Part shown: positions 24,050-50,936 of the stretch, piece by piece
Layout of the letters: each line of letters starts with the position of its first letter
How positions within the stretch are numbered: position 1 is the first letter of the stretch
Assembly: GCF_000733945.1 (NCBI RefSeq)
Contig: NZ_JPOL01000002.1
Span: 1,861,001 to 1,925,000, forward strand
DNA length: 64,000 nt
Direction: 5' to 3'
DNA from: Flavimarina sp. Hel_I_48
GTDB lineage: Bacteria > Bacteroidota > Bacteroidia > Flavobacteriales > Flavobacteriaceae
Position numbers and translations under genes: made by a program
The notes under the pieces: generated by a model
The model's input: the letters and a program-made list of their open reading frames with translations, nothing else
Database searches by the model: none
What the model was told of the DNA's origin: nothing

Positions 24050-24123
24050 ATGCCAAATAATACACTCTTTTTCAGGTTTTTTGGATTACAAAATCTTAGA
24101 AACTCAGTTTCGATTGACTTGTC

Positions 24124-24131
24124 TATCTTTG
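24124..24131 (+). promoter_or_regulatory. -7 promoter box for rnpA
   Basis: TATCTTTG matches TAnnTTTG, preceded by TTGACTTG, and lies 29 bp before the rnpA ATG. Confidence 0.65.
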
Positions 24132-24160
24132 CCATTAATTTCCGCCGAAGGCGCACAACC

Positions 24161-24553
24161 ATGAACGAGCAATTTCCCAAGCCCGAAAAACTTAAGCGCG
24201 ATAAATTAATAGAACAGCTCTTTAAAAGCGGGAAAAGTGCAAAGGCGTTTCCACTGGTTTTAATTTATGGCCAGGCCATTCTTCCAGAAAAAGTACCCAT
24301 ACAAGCCGGTTTTTCGGTTCCTAAACGCAATCATAAGTTGGCCGTTACCCGCAATCGCCTCAAGCGTATTACAAGGGAAACCTACCGTAAAAATAAAACG
24401 CTTTTTGAAGTAGGGGAGCAGACCTACACATTTATGTTCATTTATGTGGGAAAAGAAAAAATGAACTACGCCCAGATCAACCGCAGTATGGAAAAACTTA
24501 TCGCCAAGTTTAATACAGAAGTCAAGAAAGAACAGGAATCTTCTCCAGATTAG
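24161..24553 (+). CDS. rnpA: ribonuclease P protein component
   Basis: The small protein subunit of RNase P, which helps the catalytic RNA mature tRNA 5' ends. The 130-residue basic protein has the family's FSVPKRNHKLAVTRNRLKR segment (about residues 53-71), containing the RNR RNA-binding motif. The ATG at 24161 fits both family length and the promoter box just upstream; the frame to 24050 runs through the promoter. rnpA usually lies beside rpmH and dnaA near the replication origin; neither gene is here, but see the origin candidate at 28.4-29.3 kb. Confidence 0.95.
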   Translation: MNEQFPKPEKLKRDKLIEQLFKSGKSAKAFPLVLIYGQAILPEKVPIQAGFSVPKRNHKLAVTRNRLKRITRETYRKNKTLFEVGEQTYTFMFIYVGKEKMNYAQINRSMEKLIAKFNTEVKKEQESSPD

Positions 24554-39425: not shown

Positions 39426-42400
39426 GTGAAAAAGCATAATGTCATAGAGGCGAAGCTGGAAGCATTTATCAGCAAGTATTACAAAAACAAACTCCTGCGC
39501 GGACTTTTGTTCTTTGTGGCCATAGGTGTGAGCTATTTTCTCCTTGTATTGCTTATAGAATATTTTTTCTGGCTAAGGCCCGCAGGTAGGGCTTTCTTGT
39601 TTTGGTCCTTTGTGTTGGTAGAACTTTTTCTTCTTTACCGCTTTATAGGAATTCCCGCTGCGCGATTGTTTAAATTAACTAAAGGAATTGATTTTAGGGA
39701 AGCCTCTTATTTAATAGGAGCGCACTTTCCAGAGGTGAGCGACAAACTTACGAACACCCTCCAGCTAAAAGGGCAGGGGAGTGGCTCTGATCTTGCAATG
39801 GCCAGTATTGCTCAGAAAGAAAAAGAACTTGACCCCATACCTTTTTCCCTCGCTATAAACTACAGGAAGAATGCTAAATATCTAAAGTATGCCGTTATAC
39901 CGTTGCTGCTTTTTGTAATTATCAATTTTGTCTTCGGGAAACCTATATTTAAGACCAGTTATGAGCGAATGGTTAATTACGATAAGGCCTATGCTCCGCC
40001 TGCTCCTTTCTCTTTTCTGATAGATGAAACAGATTTAAGCACCATTGAAAACAAAGATTTCACAATCCATGCTAATGTAGCAGGATCAGAAATTCCCGAA
40101 AATGTACAGGTTTTTATTGATGGTAATGCCTTTTATATGACCAGCGCTGGCGGCGGAAAATTCAGTTATAGGGTAGAGCAACCGGCTACGGACATTGATT
40201 TTCATTTGGAAGCGAATGACGTGCGCTCCAGGAATTATAAACTTTCCGTGGTAAAGGCTCCGTTAATTGTTGATTTTGAAATGGCTCTTGATTACCCGGC
40301 GTATACATCAAAAAAGGATGAAACTGTGGAAAATACGGGTAACCTTACCGTTCCCGAAGGAACACGCGTCACCTGGAATCTGCAAACTTTAAATACCGAA
40401 GAAATCAAATGGATTACTTCAGATTCTACGTTGAACTTTAAGCAGAAAAGCACAGAAGTTTTTAGCATACAACGCACCCTTAGCAGAACTCTTGCTTATG
40501 GAATCAGTACGAGTAATGCGGCACTTGCAAATTATGAAACATTGGATTATCGTATTGACGTTATTCGTGATGCCTATCCCACCATAAATGTTTCCATAAA
40601 AGAAGATACGGTTAACGGTTTGCAAAATTACCATCAAGGTAGGGTTTCAGATGATTATGGACTTCGAGAACTTCGTCTCGTTTATTATGAAGAAGGGAAG
40701 GAAAGAGATAAAAAGTCAAAAAAGTTAGACATTAATGATGGAAATGTGGACCAATTTATTGCCGCTTTTCCAGATACGTTAAACCTGATTCCCGGCACAG
40801 CGTATACTTATTATTTTGAAGTGACCGATAATGATGCGGTAAACAAGTATAAGAGCGTTCGTTCCAATGTTTTTAATTTTAAAAAATTAACAAAAGAAGA
40901 AGTACAGGATGAACAATTGGACAGGCAACAGGAAACCATAAAAAACCTTGATAAATCACTTGAGAAACGGGAAAAAACAGATGAAGAACTGAAGAAAATT
41001 GCCCAGCTTCAGAAGGAAAAACAGGAACTCAATTATAGCGAGCAGCAGCAGCTCAAAAGCTTTATCAATAAGCAACGGCAGCAAGACGCGCTAATGAAAA
41101 AATATTCCGAAAGGTTAAAGGAAAATTTGAGAAATTTTAGAGAGAAAAACCAACCGGAAGATAAACTAGATGAACAACTGCAAGAACGTCTTGAGCAAAA
41201 TGAAGAAAAGTTAGAGGAGCAGGAAAAGTTACTCAAAGAACTTGATGAACTGCGCGAAAAAATAAGCAAAGAAGAACTCAGCGAAAAGTTGGAGAAAGTC
41301 AGTCAGCAAAATAAGAATTCAAAGAAGACTTTGAAACAATTGCTGGAACTAACGAAAAAGTACTACGTAGAGCAAAAAATGAAGCGTATTGCGGAGCAAA
41401 TCAAAGAGTTAGGTGAAAAACAACAGGAATTAAGCAAAAAAGAGGACAATTCACCCGAAAAACAGGAAATATTGAACCAGGAGTTCAAAGAAGTTCAGGA
41501 AGATCTTGAAAATTTAGATAAAGAAAATGAAGAACTGACGAAGCCTGTTGACCTTCCAAAAGAGGAAAAACTGGAAGAGGAAATTATAAAAGAACAACAA
41601 GATGCTACGGAAGAATTAAAAAAGGAACAAGAAGATCAGGATGAAGGGGAGAAGCAAAACCCGGAAGAAAACAAAAGCGATAGTTCTAAGAAAAAGGCTG
41701 TTCAAAAACAACAAAAAGCAGCCGATAAAATGAAACAATTGGCTCAGAAAATGGAGTCACAAATGAATCAGGCCGGTGCGCAAACCTTAGAAGAAGATGT
41801 GGATATGTTGCGTCAAATCTTGGATAATCTTGTTCTGTTTTCCTTTAATCAAGAAGATTTAATGCTCGAGTTTAAGGAAATGGACGATCGTAACCCCATG
41901 TATTCAAAAAAGCTGGTTCAGCAAAACGTGCTAAGAGAGAATTTTGAACATATTGACGATAGCCTCTTTGCGCTTTCCCTGAGGTTACCTCAGTTGGGAG
42001 AGAAAATAAGTGAGGAACTCACAAATGTAGATTACAATTTAGGTCAATCCCTTGAGAGATTAGCTGAAAATCAAATTATGCAAGGAGCCGCAAGCCAACA
42101 GTATGTTGTTACCGGAGCGAACACGCTTGCAGATATGCTTTCTTCGATCTTGAATAACATGCAGCAACAGCTTTCCGGTAGTGGCAGCGGTAAGGGAGGT
42201 AAACCAACTCCCGGAGCTGGTAGTGCAGGGGAACAATTATCTGATATTATCATGTCACAGGAAGAATTGTCAGAAAAAATGGGAAAGGGTGAATCCCCCG
42301 GTAAAGGCGGAAAGAAAGGCGAAAAAGGCGAAGACGGTGATCAGGTTAAACAGGGCGAATCCGGTAAAGATGGTGAAGAAGGCGGTAATGGTGAATCTGG

Positions 42401-42881
42401 AAAAAATGGTGGTTCTGGTGGAAGTCAGGGTCAAAATGGAATGAAAGAAGGTGATAGATTGAGTGAGGAGCAACGTCTGAAACAATATGAGATTTTTAAA
42501 GAGCAGCAGCAAATACGGGAACAATTAGAAAATTTGATTCAGAAGGAAGGTTTAGGTGAAGATGCCAATAATCTGGTCAGGGAAATGAGAAATTTAGAAG
42601 ATCAGTTATTAAGCGGTGGTATTGATGAAGCAGCTCATAAGCGTATGCAAAACTTGAAACACGAATTGATGAAGCTTAAAGTGGCAGAGCAAGAGCAAGG
42701 TCAGGATGAGGAAAGAGAATCCCAAAGCAATAGAAAAGTGTTTGATAATTCCGCCAAATCCATTGAGAAAGAAGCAAAAAATTATTTCAATACCGAAGAA
42801 TTGTTGAACAGGGAGCCGCTTCCCCTTAATGGTGAATATAAAATTAAAGTGCAAAGTTATTTTAATGGAAACGATGATTGA
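39426..42881 (+). CDS. DUF4175 family large membrane protein
   Basis: An 1151-residue protein of the DUF4175 family. Two N-terminal transmembrane segments (about residues 24-75) and another (about 152-170) are followed by a beta-rich presumably periplasmic region (about 190-490). A very long coiled coil rich in Glu, Lys and Gln runs from about 495 to 780. A Gly/Ser/Lys/Glu low-complexity stretch (about 920-1010) has collagen-like GxxGxx character. It starts with GTG, judged from the position of the first hydrophobic helix. It overlaps ybeY by 8 bp. Its function is unknown; the architecture suggests an envelope-spanning scaffold. Confidence 0.85.
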   Translation: MKKHNVIEAKLEAFISKYYKNKLLRGLLFFVAIGVSYFLLVLLIEYFFWLRPAGRAFLFWSFVLVELFLLYRFIGIPAARLFKLTKGIDFREASYLIGAHFPEVSDKLTNTLQLKGQGSGSDLAMASIAQKEKELDPIPFSLAINYRKNAKYLKYAVIPLLLFVIINFVFGKPIFKTSYERMVNYDKAYAPPAPFSFLIDETDLSTIENKDFTIHANVAGSEIPENVQVFIDGNAFYMTSAGGGKFSYRVEQPATDIDFHLEANDVRSRNYKLSVVKAPLIVDFEMALDYPAYTSKKDETVENTGNLTVPEGTRVTWNLQTLNTEEIKWITSDSTLNFKQKSTEVFSIQRTLSRTLAYGISTSNAALANYETLDYRIDVIRDAYPTINVSIKEDTVNGLQNYHQGRVSDDYGLRELRLVYYEEGKERDKKSKKLDINDGNVDQFIAAFPDTLNLIPGTAYTYYFEVTDNDAVNKYKSVRSNVFNFKKLTKEEVQDEQLDRQQETIKNLDKSLEKREKTDEELKKIAQLQKEKQELNYSEQQQLKSFINKQRQQDALMKKYSERLKENLRNFREKNQPEDKLDEQLQERLEQNEEKLEEQEKLLKELDELREKISKEELSEKLEKVSQQNKNSKKTLKQLLELTKKYYVEQKMKRIAEQIKELGEKQQELSKKEDNSPEKQEILNQEFKEVQEDLENLDKENEELTKPVDLPKEEKLEEEIIKEQQDATEELKKEQEDQDEGEKQNPEENKSDSSKKKAVQKQQKAADKMKQLAQKMESQMNQAGAQTLEEDVDMLRQILDNLVLFSFNQEDLMLEFKEMDDRNPMYSKKLVQQNVLRENFEHIDDSLFALSLRLPQLGEKISEELTNVDYNLGQSLERLAENQIMQGAASQQYVVTGANTLADMLSSILNNMQQQLSGSGSGKGGKPTPGAGSAGEQLSDIIMSQEELSEKMGKGESPGKGGKKGEKGEDGDQVKQGESGKDGEEGGNGESGKNGGSGGSQGQNGMKEGDRLSEEQRLKQYEIFKEQQQIREQLENLIQKEGLGEDANNLVREMRNLEDQLLSGGIDEAAHKRMQNLKHELMKLKVAEQEQGQDEERESQSNRKVFDNSAKSIEKEAKNYFNTEELLNREPLPLNGEYKIKVQSYFNGNDD

Positions 42882-43287
42882 ATTTAATAGTCAGAATGAG
42901 TTCGAACTCAAGGGAGAAAGTGCCTATGAAAGTTGGTTAAATACCGTAGCCGAAGAAGAGAATAGAATCATTCAGGAATTGGGTTATGTTTTTTGCAGTG
43001 ATGCATTTCTTTTAGACCTCAATCAGCAATATCTGGATCATGATACGTTTACTGATATCATAACATTTGATTATTGTGAGGAACAGTTCATTAGGGGTGA
43101 GATTTACATTAGTACAGATCGTGTTCGGGAAAATGCTGTAAAGTATGAAGTTTCTTATACGACAGAGCTTAAACGGGTTATGGTTCATGGTTTATTGCAC
43201 TTGTGTGGGCATGGAGATAAGGGGGGTGCGGAGAAAGCCTTAATGCGCGATATGGAAACGTTTTACATTGATAAGTTCACTTCGTAA
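42874..43287 (+). CDS. ybeY: endoribonuclease YbeY (rRNA maturation factor)
   Basis: A metal-dependent RNase needed for 16S rRNA 3'-end maturation and 70S quality control. The 137-residue protein has the zinc motif VHGLLHLCGHGD: His-x3-His, then Asp where many bacteria have the third His. That His-to-Asp variant is what I recall for Bacteroidetes members. The start at 42874 (MIEFNSQ) matches the family's MI-F opening and overlaps the DUF4175 stop; ATG 42865 is an alternative. Confidence 0.92.
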   Translation: MIEFNSQNEFELKGESAYESWLNTVAEEENRIIQELGYVFCSDAFLLDLNQQYLDHDTFTDIITFDYCEEQFIRGEIYISTDRVRENAVKYEVSYTTELKRVMVHGLLHLCGHGDKGGAEKALMRDMETFYIDKFTS

Positions 43288-43356: not shown

Positions 43357-43372
43357 TGTTTCACGTGGAACA
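43357..43372. promoter_or_regulatory. parS-like site (ParB binding), left of mnmG
   Basis: TGTTTCACGTGGAACA matches the ParB/Spo0J parS consensus TGTTNCACGTGAAACA when read on the minus strand, with no mismatch. It directly abuts the mnmG ATG. Confidence 0.85.
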
Positions 43373-45250
43373 ATGAGTTTATTTCAAGATATATACGATG
43401 TTATTATAGTGGGAGGTGGACACGCTGGTTGTGAAGCTGCTGCTGCTGCCGCTAACAGAGGAAGCAAAACACTTCTTGTCACCATGAATTTACAGACCAT
43501 CGCACAGATGTCCTGTAATCCCGCTATGGGCGGTATTGCAAAAGGCCAGATTGTGCGAGAAATAGATGCGATGGGTGGATATAGTGGTATTGTTTCAGAT
43601 AAGACTGCCATTCAGTTTAAGATGCTCAATATGTCTAAAGGACCCGCAATGTGGAGCCCGCGGGTACAGAGTGATCGTATGCGCTTCGCGGAGGAGTGGA
43701 GGCACATGCTTGAGCGAACGCCAAATCTTGACTTTTATCAGGAAATGGTGAGTTCACTAATCGTGGAAGGAGACAATGTTCAGGGTGTGGTTACTTCCCT
43801 GGGTATAGAAATTAGATCAAAAAGTGTGGTGCTGACTAATGGTACTTTTCTTAATGGTTTAATACATATTGGAGAGAAAAATTTTGGTGGTGGACGTTCT
43901 GGAGAGCGAGCTTCAAGAGGTATAACAGAACAGCTAGTGGAACTTGGTTTCGAATCTGGCAGAATGAAAACAGGTACACCTCCGCGCGTAGATGGAAGGT
44001 CATTAGACTTTACTAAAATGGTCGAGCAACCTGGCGATGAACATCCTCAGAAATTTAGTTTTAGTGCTGCAACAAAGCCTTTGGAAACTCAGCGTTCTTG
44101 CCATATGGCATATACTAGCAATGAGGTCCACGAAATTTTAAAGACAGGCTTTGATCGATCGCCCATGTTTAATGGGAATATACAGAGTAGTGGTCCCAGA
44201 TATTGCCCATCAATCGAGGATAAAATAAACAGGTTTGCAGATAAGGACAGACACCAGTTATTTGTTGAACCTGAAGGATGGAATACCGTCGAATATTATA
44301 TTAATGGCTTTTCGACCAGTCTACCAGAAGATGTACAGTTTAAAGCTTTGAGTAGTGTAAAAGGATTTGAAAAAGTTAAGTTTTTTAGACCTGGTTACGC
44401 TATTGAATACGATTATTTTCCACCTACACAATTAAAACATACGCTTGAAACGAAATTGATTTCAGGACTCTATTTCGCCGGACAGATAAATGGTACCACC
44501 GGTTATGAAGAAGCTGCTTGCCAGGGAATGATGGCAGGTATTAACGCAAGTCTAAAAGTAGAAGAGCAAGAGCCTTTCATTCTCACCAGAAGTGAGGCCT
44601 ATATAGGGGTTCTGATAGACGATCTTATTACTAAGGGTACAGAAGAGCCTTATCGTATGTTTACCTCCCGTGCAGAGTACCGTACGCTTATGAGACAGGA
44701 TAATGCTGACGCCAGACTTACCCCACTATCCTATGCTATTGGTTTAGCTTCTAAAGAAAAATTGAACGCGGTAGAGCAGAAAAAGGAAGAAGCAAAAGAT
44801 CTTATTGAGTTCTTTGAAAATACCAGCGTGGCTCCTGAAGAAATCAATCCTATTCTAGAAGATTATAATTCTTCTCCGATGTCTCAATCTGATAAAATGG
44901 TCAAGGTCTTTAGAAGGCCCCAAATAGCATTAAAAGATATGCTTCTTCTTCAAGATGTAAAGAAATACGTTTCTGATAATAACCTATCTCACGAAGTTTT
45001 AGAGCAAGCGGAAATTCAAATAAAATATGCAGGATATATAGAAAAGGAAAAGGCGAATGCCGATAAGTTACAACGCTTAGAAAATATTCGTATACCTGAT
45101 AATTTTGATTATAAATTATTAAAATCTTTGTCCTACGAGGCACGCGAAAAGCTTACTAAAATACGGCCTACATCCATTTCACAGGCTTCAAGAATTAGTG
45201 GTGTATCACCAAGTGATATTTCGGTTATGCTTGTTTATATGGGAAGATAA
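43373..45250 (+). CDS. mnmG: tRNA uridine-5-carboxymethylaminomethyl modification enzyme
   Basis: MnmG (GidA), with MnmE, adds the cmnm5 group to the wobble uridine of certain tRNAs, using FAD and NADH. The 625-residue length is standard. The FAD site is VIIVGGGHAGCEAA (about residues 10-24); other signatures are CNPAMGGIAKG, GTPPRVDGRS, PRYCPSIEDK and GQINGTTGYEEAA. mnmG is a frequent origin-neighbour gene. Here it is flanked on both sides by inverted parS-like sites, the left one in its 5' leader. Confidence 0.97.
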   Translation: MSLFQDIYDVIIVGGGHAGCEAAAAAANRGSKTLLVTMNLQTIAQMSCNPAMGGIAKGQIVREIDAMGGYSGIVSDKTAIQFKMLNMSKGPAMWSPRVQSDRMRFAEEWRHMLERTPNLDFYQEMVSSLIVEGDNVQGVVTSLGIEIRSKSVVLTNGTFLNGLIHIGEKNFGGGRSGERASRGITEQLVELGFESGRMKTGTPPRVDGRSLDFTKMVEQPGDEHPQKFSFSAATKPLETQRSCHMAYTSNEVHEILKTGFDRSPMFNGNIQSSGPRYCPSIEDKINRFADKDRHQLFVEPEGWNTVEYYINGFSTSLPEDVQFKALSSVKGFEKVKFFRPGYAIEYDYFPPTQLKHTLETKLISGLYFAGQINGTTGYEEAACQGMMAGINASLKVEEQEPFILTRSEAYIGVLIDDLITKGTEEPYRMFTSRAEYRTLMRQDNADARLTPLSYAIGLASKEKLNAVEQKKEEAKDLIEFFENTSVAPEEINPILEDYNSSPMSQSDKMVKVFRRPQIALKDMLLLQDVKKYVSDNNLSHEVLEQAEIQIKYAGYIEKEKANADKLQRLENIRIPDNFDYKLLKSLSYEAREKLTKIRPTSISQASRISGVSPSDISVMLVYMGR

Positions 45251-45255
45251 GGTGA

Positions 45256-45271
45256 TGTTCCACGTGAAACA
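45256..45271. promoter_or_regulatory. parS-like site (ParB binding), right of mnmG
   Basis: TGTTCCACGTGAAACA matches TGTTNCACGTGAAACA exactly and is the reverse complement of the site at 43357-43372. It begins 5 bp after the mnmG stop. Confidence 0.87.
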
Positions 45272-45346: not shown

Positions 45347-46204
45347 TTGGGATACCCATCAAATAAAAATTTTACTGTAAAGGATTATTCGGTAAGTAAA
45401 AAAGAATTTGAACTTTGTTATGATGAGCATTATGATCTTTGGAACACGTATCCAAAACCATCCCCAGAAGAATTGAGCGAATATTACGATAGCTCAGATT
45501 ATATTTCCCATACAGATTCACGACGCTCTTTAACAGATAAATTATATCAACAGGTCAAGAAATGGATGTTTTCCTATAAATTTAATGTTCTTCAAAAACA
45601 TAAAAACAAAGGAAAAATTCTAGATATTGGGGCAGGAACGGGAGATTTTTTAGAGGAAGCGAAGAAAAGGAATTGGAAAATTACAGGGGTAGAACCTAAT
45701 TCCGCCGCCAGGGAATTAGCAAAATATAAAGGTGTCAAACTTGAAAGTGAGCTTTCAGAAATTTCAGGTTTCTATGATGTCATTACGCTTTGGCACGTTC
45801 TTGAACATGTCTATGATTTGAAGGAATATATTCGATTTTTAAACGCGCATTTAGCTGAAAATGGAGTATTGTTAATAGCTGTTCCTAACTTTAAAAGTTG
45901 GGATGCCAGAAAATACAAAGCACAATGGGCGGCTAATGATGTGCCAAGACACTTATATCATTTTTCAAAATCAGCTATTGAACGCTTATTTGCCGAAGTA
46001 AATATGGAGCTCATAGATACAAAGCCACTTTTTTTTGATTCTTTCTATGTAAGCATACTTTCTGAAAAATATCGAGAAAACAATTCTCCTTTATTGCGCG
46101 GGCTATTATCAGGGTTGAAGTCCAATCTCTCTGCATTGCATTCAAAGGAATATTCTTCCCAAATTTACATTTTAAAACATCAAAACCGCACTACGAGCTC
46201 CTAA
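45347..46204 (+). CDS. class I SAM-dependent methyltransferase
   Basis: A methyltransferase of about 285 residues. The SAM-binding motif I is ILDIGAGTGDFLEEA (about residue 90), with motif II-like GVEPNSAARELA and the WHVLEHVYDLKEYI post-motif. The N-terminal part (PSPEELSEYYDSSDYISHTD) is typical of a Bacteroidetes group with an unknown acceptor. No ATG precedes the conserved region; TTG at 45347 is the only start candidate in frame before a stop, so the start is uncertain. It follows the right-hand parS-like site by 75 bp. Confidence 0.85.
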   Translation: MGYPSNKNFTVKDYSVSKKEFELCYDEHYDLWNTYPKPSPEELSEYYDSSDYISHTDSRRSLTDKLYQQVKKWMFSYKFNVLQKHKNKGKILDIGAGTGDFLEEAKKRNWKITGVEPNSAARELAKYKGVKLESELSEISGFYDVITLWHVLEHVYDLKEYIRFLNAHLAENGVLLIAVPNFKSWDARKYKAQWAANDVPRHLYHFSKSAIERLFAEVNMELIDTKPLFFDSFYVSILSEKYRENNSPLLRGLLSGLKSNLSALHSKEYSSQIYILKHQNRTTSS

Positions 46205-49529: not shown

Positions 49530-50936
49530 TTGATCAAAGAAAAAACGGTTAACAAGCTAGGCTTAGCTGTACTTTTTAGTGTTTCATTATTCGCAGGCGT
49601 ACATGCCCAGAAAAACCAGAATTCTATTTTGAGGGATTCTCGGGAAAATGGGGTAGTACGCCGCGGTGACACGACTGTGCAATTAAAAAAAATGACAGAT
49701 CTGCATAAGGATGAAACGGTTAATCTCATTCTTGAAAAGATAAAGGAAGGCGATTCACTGGTTTATCAACTTGATGATGATTCATACGCTTCCGCACTTG
49801 ATGCGAAGTGGATTGAAGAACTTACCACAGAATCCCTTTATGACTCTATTACAGAAATGGTTCAGGAACAGGACCTGGGAGAAATAGAGTATTCTGAATT
49901 GCCTACAGATACCCTAAAAAAGCGTTTAGCGCGATTAAATGCTATTACACCGTTTGATATAGAGTATAACCCCTATCTGGAACGGGTGATCAAGAATTAC
50001 CTAAAACGGCATAGACCTGCTATGGAAAGACTTATGGGTCTAAGTCATTTTTATTTTCCAGGTTTTGAAGAAACATTAGATAAGTATGACCTTCCATTAG
50101 AGCTTAAATATCTGGCCGTTGTAGAGTCCGCTTTGCGACCCCGCGTACGTTCTAGAGCGGGTGCCACGGGGATGTGGCAATTTATGTATGCCACAGCAAA
50201 AATACATGATCTGGAAATCAATTCGTACGTTGATGAGCGAATGGATCCTGAACGTTCCACCGAAGCAGCAAGCGAATATTTATCCCGGCTTTATGAGATT
50301 TTTGAAGATTGGGATCTTGCTTTGGCCGCCTACAACTCTGGACCTGGAAATGTTTCCAAAGCGATACGGCGGAGTGGGGGATATAAAAATTACTGGAACT
50401 TAAGGCCTTATTTACCCAGGGAAACGGCAGGTTATGTTCCTGCTTTTTATGCATTTATTTACGTTTTTGAATATGCAAAAGAACATGGCTATAATCCTGA
50501 AAAGCCGCAGTTTAATTACTTTCTCACAGATACTGTACATATCAAAGAGAGCCTGACCTTGAATGAAGTTTCTGAATTTACGGGCGTTTCACTCGCTGAG
50601 CTTGAATATCTCAACCCGGTTTATAAATTGAATATTATCCCTAAAACCGAAGATGATCAGTATGCGTTGCGACTTCCCAGAAAGGAAGTAGGTAAATTTG
50701 TATACAACGAAGACGCCATTTACGCCACCGTACAGGCAAAGAATGATCAGCGGGAGAAAACCCTTCCAGAACTGCTAGAACAGGCTGCAGGGATCAATTA
50801 TAGGGTCAAAAGCGGTGATTTTTTAGGTAGGATAGCAAATCGTTATGGCGTTGGGATCTCTCAGATAAAACAATGGAACAATTTACGCTCCAATAAATTG
50901 AAAATAGGTCAGCGCCTGCTTATATATCCCAAATAA
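49530..50936 (+). CDS. lytic transglycosylase with LysM domain (MltD-like)
   Basis: A peptidoglycan-cleaving enzyme of 468 residues. A signal peptide (about residues 1-26, ending VHAQ) precedes the SLT domain. The catalytic Glu is in VVESALRPRVRSRAGATGMWQFM (about residue 197); AAYNSGPGNV is the second signature. The C-terminus holds a clear LysM repeat (YRVKSGDFLGRIANRYG to the end) and a weaker one before it (LNEVSEFTGVSLAELEYLNP). No ATG precedes the signal peptide; TTG at 49530 is the start. Confidence 0.92.
   Translation: MIKEKTVNKLGLAVLFSVSLFAGVHAQKNQNSILRDSRENGVVRRGDTTVQLKKMTDLHKDETVNLILEKIKEGDSLVYQLDDDSYASALDAKWIEELTTESLYDSITEMVQEQDLGEIEYSELPTDTLKKRLARLNAITPFDIEYNPYLERVIKNYLKRHRPAMERLMGLSHFYFPGFEETLDKYDLPLELKYLAVVESALRPRVRSRAGATGMWQFMYATAKIHDLEINSYVDERMDPERSTEAASEYLSRLYEIFEDWDLALAAYNSGPGNVSKAIRRSGGYKNYWNLRPYLPRETAGYVPAFYAFIYVFEYAKEHGYNPEKPQFNYFLTDTVHIKESLTLNEVSEFTGVSLAELEYLNPVYKLNIIPKTEDDQYALRLPRKEVGKFVYNEDAIYATVQAKNDQREKTLPELLEQAAGINYRVKSGDFLGRIANRYGVGISQIKQWNNLRSNKLKIGQRLLIYPK

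Follow-up and report, generated by a model that had tools for sequence, protein, structure and literature searches.

The two palindromes that flank mnmG in Flavimarina sp. Hel_I_48 very probably constitute its chromosomal centromere, parS, and ParB is predicted to bind them. Sequence data provided the computed results: the sites themselves, how unique and how conserved they are, the genes for ParA and ParB, the ParB residues and a nearby skew switch. Within the 64,000-nucleotide stretch of DNA that was analysed (the window), predicted parS site 1 (TGTTTCACGTGGAACA) occupies positions 43357..43372 of the plus strand and directly adjoins the mnmG start codon (ATG at 43373). Predicted site 2 (TGTTCCACGTGAAACA), its exact reverse complement, lies on the minus strand at 45256..45271 and begins five bases after the TAA stop at 45248-45250. 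Between both sites, mnmG (gidA; 43373..45250, plus strand) encodes a tRNA-modifying enzyme of 625 amino acids (Pfam GIDA, E 4.3e-163); a TIGR00136 match places it at 1904394-1906244 on contig C2 of the genome, where the site pair falls at 1.904 and 1.906 Mb, with a spacing of 1.9 kb. These coordinates confirm the arrangement described in the initial annotation, namely an exact 16-mer at the start of mnmG and its reverse complement 5 bp past the stop. The accompanying statement that both sites match the ParB consensus without mismatch holds for one strand of each site: compared with TGTTNCACGTGAAACA, each has zero mismatches on one strand, but the upstream site, perfect on the minus strand, differs at position 12 on the plus strand. 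Because the sites are near-palindromic, their reported inverted orientation amounts to one asymmetric base pair per site. Among 60 two-site loci of relatives, both sites were symmetric in 24, opposite in 12 and in the same orientation in five, and the other 19 had one symmetric site; with 12 opposite against five same, orientation is not kept, and the suggestion that it is meaningful finds no support.

Exact copies of the 16-mer are confined to this pair, in the window and in the genome alike. With up to three mismatches allowed, the 16-mer gave four matches in the window, that is, two places read on both strands, compared with a mean of 0.53 in shuffled sequence (four matches were reached in 1 of 100 shuffles); the window thus holds no further match, as had been judged by eye. 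Over the whole genome (4,140,757 bases, four contigs), exact TGTTYCACGTGRAACA occurs at two places only, both flanking mnmG. No place with one mismatch was found in this genome and four with two mismatches were, and since the reversed control pattern yields five places when up to two mismatches are allowed, we regard the two-mismatch places as background. A genome-wide scan at up to one mismatch, as the initial annotation had proposed, therefore returns just the two places at mnmG, which rules out sites spread evenly round the genome. A chance repeat without function is an explanation to which we give almost no credence: the motif is short, and nothing else was found in its favour, whereas only 0.004 exact places per genome would be expected from base composition, the core bases are conserved while the flanking bases vary, and the exact pattern is present in 39 of 50 genomes (this one included) against none of the 50 for the reversed control. 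The expectation that two chance matches would be very unlikely is thereby borne out. A plasmid search with a 60-base query spanning site 1 returned short matches only, none covering 80%.

Recurrence at mnmG is a further line of evidence for a centromere. In 30 of the 39 genomes with an exact site, one site per genome was followed up (own genome included), and mnmG lay at most 121 bp from the perfect site in 30 of 30 loci. In 12 of the 50 genomes there were two exact sites, separated by 1.89 to 2.02 kb. When ten genomes were scanned at up to one mismatch, all ten had a pair of sites no more than 2 kb apart (in G052 the separation is 37 bp), with one extra place elsewhere in G003 and in G009; the reversed control gave places in three of the same ten. 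Judged by its best MnmG relatives, this flavobacterium is Leeuwenhoekiella-like, and the mnmG loci named here are the best 80 of 201 relatives, a set that leans to close relatives for that reason. In these best 80 of 201 loci, at up to two mismatches, the upstream site was found in 67, the downstream site in 66 and both in 60 (both exact in 28); the other 20 loci had a site on one side in 13 cases and on neither in seven, and L141 and L171 offered just 19 bases of sequence upstream of mnmG. At up to one mismatch, site density in the same best 80 of 201 loci was about 240 times higher around the ends of mnmG (147 in 43,678 positions) than elsewhere (14 in 1,010,127 positions). Mismatches fell mostly at the outermost two bases and the inner bases, including CACGTG, were nearly invariant, in a profile drawn from sites preselected at up to two mismatches.

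The pattern extends across the class. In an even draw of 80 genomes across the class, mnmG was found in 76, and a site with up to one mismatch was present somewhere in 75 (reversed control in nine). A site at this threshold lay no farther than about 0.7 kb from mnmG in 39 of the 47 genomes that were judged; these 47 of the 76 were judged by combining 27 genomes among the matches listed, the 30 mnmG loci and the genomes without any site, in a tally made by hand from which G065, with sites but no mnmG match, was dropped. The eight of 47 without a near-mnmG site at up to one mismatch are G062, G067 (128 bases available before mnmG), G076, G080, G090, G109 (sole site 25 kb from mnmG), G112 and G119. 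Larger groups of sites were also seen. G007 has, besides a single site on another contig, four perfect TGTTTCACGTGAAACA sites at places 36 to 3724 of contig C80, which may be a plasmid carrying a separate parS, and G085 has seven parS-like sites spaced 98 to 99 bp apart on contig C24 (13202-13810) and two 99 bp apart near mnmG on contig C40.

The immediate neighbours of mnmG help to discriminate between a centromere and a regulatory element. Usually, mnmG is preceded by the endoribonuclease gene ybeY (42829..43287, plus strand; Pfam YbeY, E 2.8e-23) and followed by a gene for a SAM-type methyltransferase (45347..46204, plus strand; Pfam Methyltransf_23, E 5.7e-30). Both were sought in relatives by tblastn with the window proteins at E 1e-6, a threshold at which diverged neighbours may have been missed; a site was counted if it lay within 1.4 kb at up to one mismatch. 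Among the best 80 of 201 loci, all 72 with ybeY or the methyltransferase beside mnmG had a site, as did two of the eight in which neither was found; in the 30-locus class set, the corresponding counts were 24 of 25 and one of five. The statistics of this trend are weakened by relatedness and by contig ends (L141, L171 and L287), and the trend suggests that parS tracks the ybeY-mnmG neighbourhood and not mnmG as a gene. A DUF4175 protein of 1151 amino acids is encoded before ybeY (window 39426-42881), with a relative in 25 of the 30 loci taken around perfect sites.

The palindromes might instead be operators of mnmG, with a regulator, possibly ParB itself, blocking transcription when bound before the start codon. 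As the upstream site adjoins the start codon, both in this genome and in all 12 same-genus loci taken around perfect sites, a bound protein could indeed hinder mnmG transcription. We nevertheless consider it very improbable that this is what the sites are for: 66 of the best 80 of 201 loci have a site past the stop codon as well; some sites lie inside mnmG (G127 and L278) or 0.6 kb from it (G092); and in loci without ybeY and the methyltransferase the site is usually gone, although a contig end explains some of the missing neighbours. Still less plausible, at odds that we judge to be minimal, is that the palindromes act as RNA hairpins, one as a leader structure of mnmG and the other as a terminator. 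Both are self-complementary and stand at gene ends, as hairpins of this kind would, but folding was no better than in shuffles in either region (z 0.10 and 0.68), no terminator-like match was found at the downstream site, and the central bases, which would form the loop, hardly vary. In several loci, a third site with one mismatch occurs between 6.3 and 7.4 kb past the mnmG start. Five were inspected: in three of the five (L101, L104 and L110) it coincides with codons for a conserved LPRETAG stretch, so it is likely a coding coincidence. The same stretch was recognized by eye in the window ORF at 49530-50936, presumably a LysM transglycosylase.

A chromosomal centromere is also indicated by the position of the sites relative to the GC skew. 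Along C2, skew was computed in 40 stretches of 20 kb with runs of N excluded; left of 1.815 Mb its mean was -0.025 (positive in 5 of 19 stretches) and right of it 0.043 (positive in 20 of 21). The best switch point could be at any position between 1.82 and 1.90 Mb. In the gap-free 215 kb at 1.710-1.925 Mb, cumulative skew is lowest at 1,815,493, which puts this minimum 89 kb to the left of site 1. For four relatives with single-contig genomes (G011, G052, G051 and G047; 20 stretches each), the share of origin positions scoring above parS was 0.5, 0, 6.9 and 4.6%, respectively. In G051, parS (171 kb) does not coincide with the origin position of best fit (300 kb). An origin placed at parB scored negative in all four relatives, and one placed at dnaA in three of the four. 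From the switch on C2 and these four relatives, we conclude that the sites lie near the skew origin. The sites are few and clustered near this putative origin, whose position is taken from skew, in agreement with the clustering anticipated in the initial annotation. No DnaA-box cluster stood out above other stretches.

In many described systems the parAB genes are close to parS and the origin, an arrangement that is common and not required for function. It was not found here, nor was parB near the sites in the single-contig relatives. In our draft genome the sites are on C2, and parA, parB and dnaA are all on C3. Seven single-contig genomes (G011, G032, G043, G047, G050, G051 and G052) were checked for the location of parB and dnaA, and both genes were far from the site pair in all seven. 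Expressed as a fraction of half the chromosome, the distance from the sites in six genomes was 0.56-0.95 for parB and 0.37-0.99 for dnaA; in G032, with a chromosome of about 3.1 Mb, the gaps were 1.18 and 1.16 Mb, respectively. The genes of an ancestral origin cluster, as given in PMC2099444, include gidA, rnpA, parA, parB and dnaA. The mnmG address fits an old origin cluster that parB and dnaA would have left in the course of evolution. As a separate observation, rnpA (ribonuclease P; Pfam E 5.9e-20), another gene of the cluster in PMC2099444, is encoded in the window at 24050-24553, 19 kb from the sites.

The genome encodes a partition protein suited to such sites. A TIGR00180 match (E 4.9e-49) at position 328004 of C3 identifies a ParB of 300 amino acids that aligns to solved Spo0J/ParB chains, and a ParA-type ATPase gene directly precedes it; the absence of a ParB gene, which would have spoken against a centromere, can thus be dismissed. 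The protein carries GERR and EN-x-QR motifs, which we take to be the CTP-binding motifs of ParB. In Caulobacter numbering, assigned purely by an ungapped count from the GKNR motif, its residues are Q162, G170, K171, N172, R173, N178, Y179, K184, G201 and R204. The parS-type DNA contacts R173 and G201 are therefore present together with five of six others, the exception being N172, where E, A and S are found in the aligned solved chains. According to PMC7383237, R173 and G201 are absolutely conserved in ParB and replaced by Q and R in the paralogue Noc, S172 is a contact common to both proteins, and the palindrome bound by Noc, NBS, differs from parS at two positions. We rejected a Noc/NBS identity: the sites match parS, and Q173 and R201 are absent, with R and G there instead. 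The C3-encoded ParB has parS-type specificity residues, as read from its sequence. Another protein that combines a ParB N-terminal domain with an HTH domain (598 amino acids; C2, 2469394-2469831, L006) has matches of similar length in three of four same-genus genomes; our guess is that it is perhaps a mobile-element protein.

The proposal in the initial annotation that the flanks of mnmG are the centromere region of the chromosome is thus supported by site uniqueness, the ParA-ParB pair, the skew switch and recurrence at mnmG. From these features we infer how the locus may work, including ParB binding and the reason for two sites. Clamp loading and ParA-driven segregation are general behaviours of ParABS systems. 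ParB from the C3 parA-parB pair would recognize each site through its helix-turn-helix, load there as a CTP-dependent clamp, slide onto neighbouring DNA and form a partition complex, and ParA would then separate the origin regions after they are copied. A pair of sites with a spacing of 1.9 kb may provide redundancy and one local focus, and mnmG may lie between them because its flanking intergenic spaces are where sites persisted.

One partner known from other bacteria did not appear. In this genome, the best match to Smc (TIGR02168) reached 21.5 bits, below the cut-off of 567.35 that was passed in 10 of 14 control genomes; the Smc-like matches were short stretches below the cut-off and nothing else. 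The Smc on which ParB-loaded Smc-ScpAB depends was therefore not found at this cut-off, in a condensin search that consisted of the Smc profile. In Bacillus subtilis, by contrast, ParB recruits Smc to parS, as stated in PMC13342612.

Compared with the chromosomal ParABS systems of B. subtilis (Spo0J) and Caulobacter (ParB), the locus has 16-bp palindromes of the same family, a genome that encodes both ParA and ParB, parS-type ParB residues and sites near a skew switch; unlike in those systems, parB is not beside parS, and unlike in B. subtilis, no Smc passes the cut-off. Bacteroides caecimuris and Muribaculum intestinale belong to another order of the phylum. They were included in a Hi-C study of gut bacteria, the accessible sections of which report that parS clusters and GC skew placed the origin in 12 genomes, that dnaA was not systematically at the origin, that no known condensin was found in the two Bacteroidetes and that the chromosome arms of B. 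caecimuris were aligned without one, by machinery called unidentified (PMC10197239). Our locus resembles these parS clusters in that parS goes with the skew origin, dnaA need not lie there and no known condensin was found (here, no Smc above the cut-off); those sections differ in leaving unnamed both the gene beside parS and the genomes without dnaA at the origin. Literature on parS with mnmG/gidA or Bacteroidetes yielded no mention of the mnmG address, within partial coverage and with a search term that also matches parsimony. Although parS is a known kind of element, the novelty of its mnmG address is therefore uncertain.

In summary, our results suggest a broader picture that we put forward tentatively and hold to be less probable than not: a ybeY-mnmG centromere may be fixed near the skew origin across much of the class, with parB and dnaA having moved, mostly to the far half of the chromosome (parA too, at least here), and in the absence of Smc the ParB clamps may act through ParA alone or through an unidentified condensin. 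The site pair would provide a sequence-defined centromere address in a group whose dnaA is a misleading guide to the origin, and origins in draft genomes could be located with it. In addition, a locus of this kind, with just two parS sites, in flavobacteria that can be cultured would open the question of which machinery aligns the chromosome arms to direct testing.
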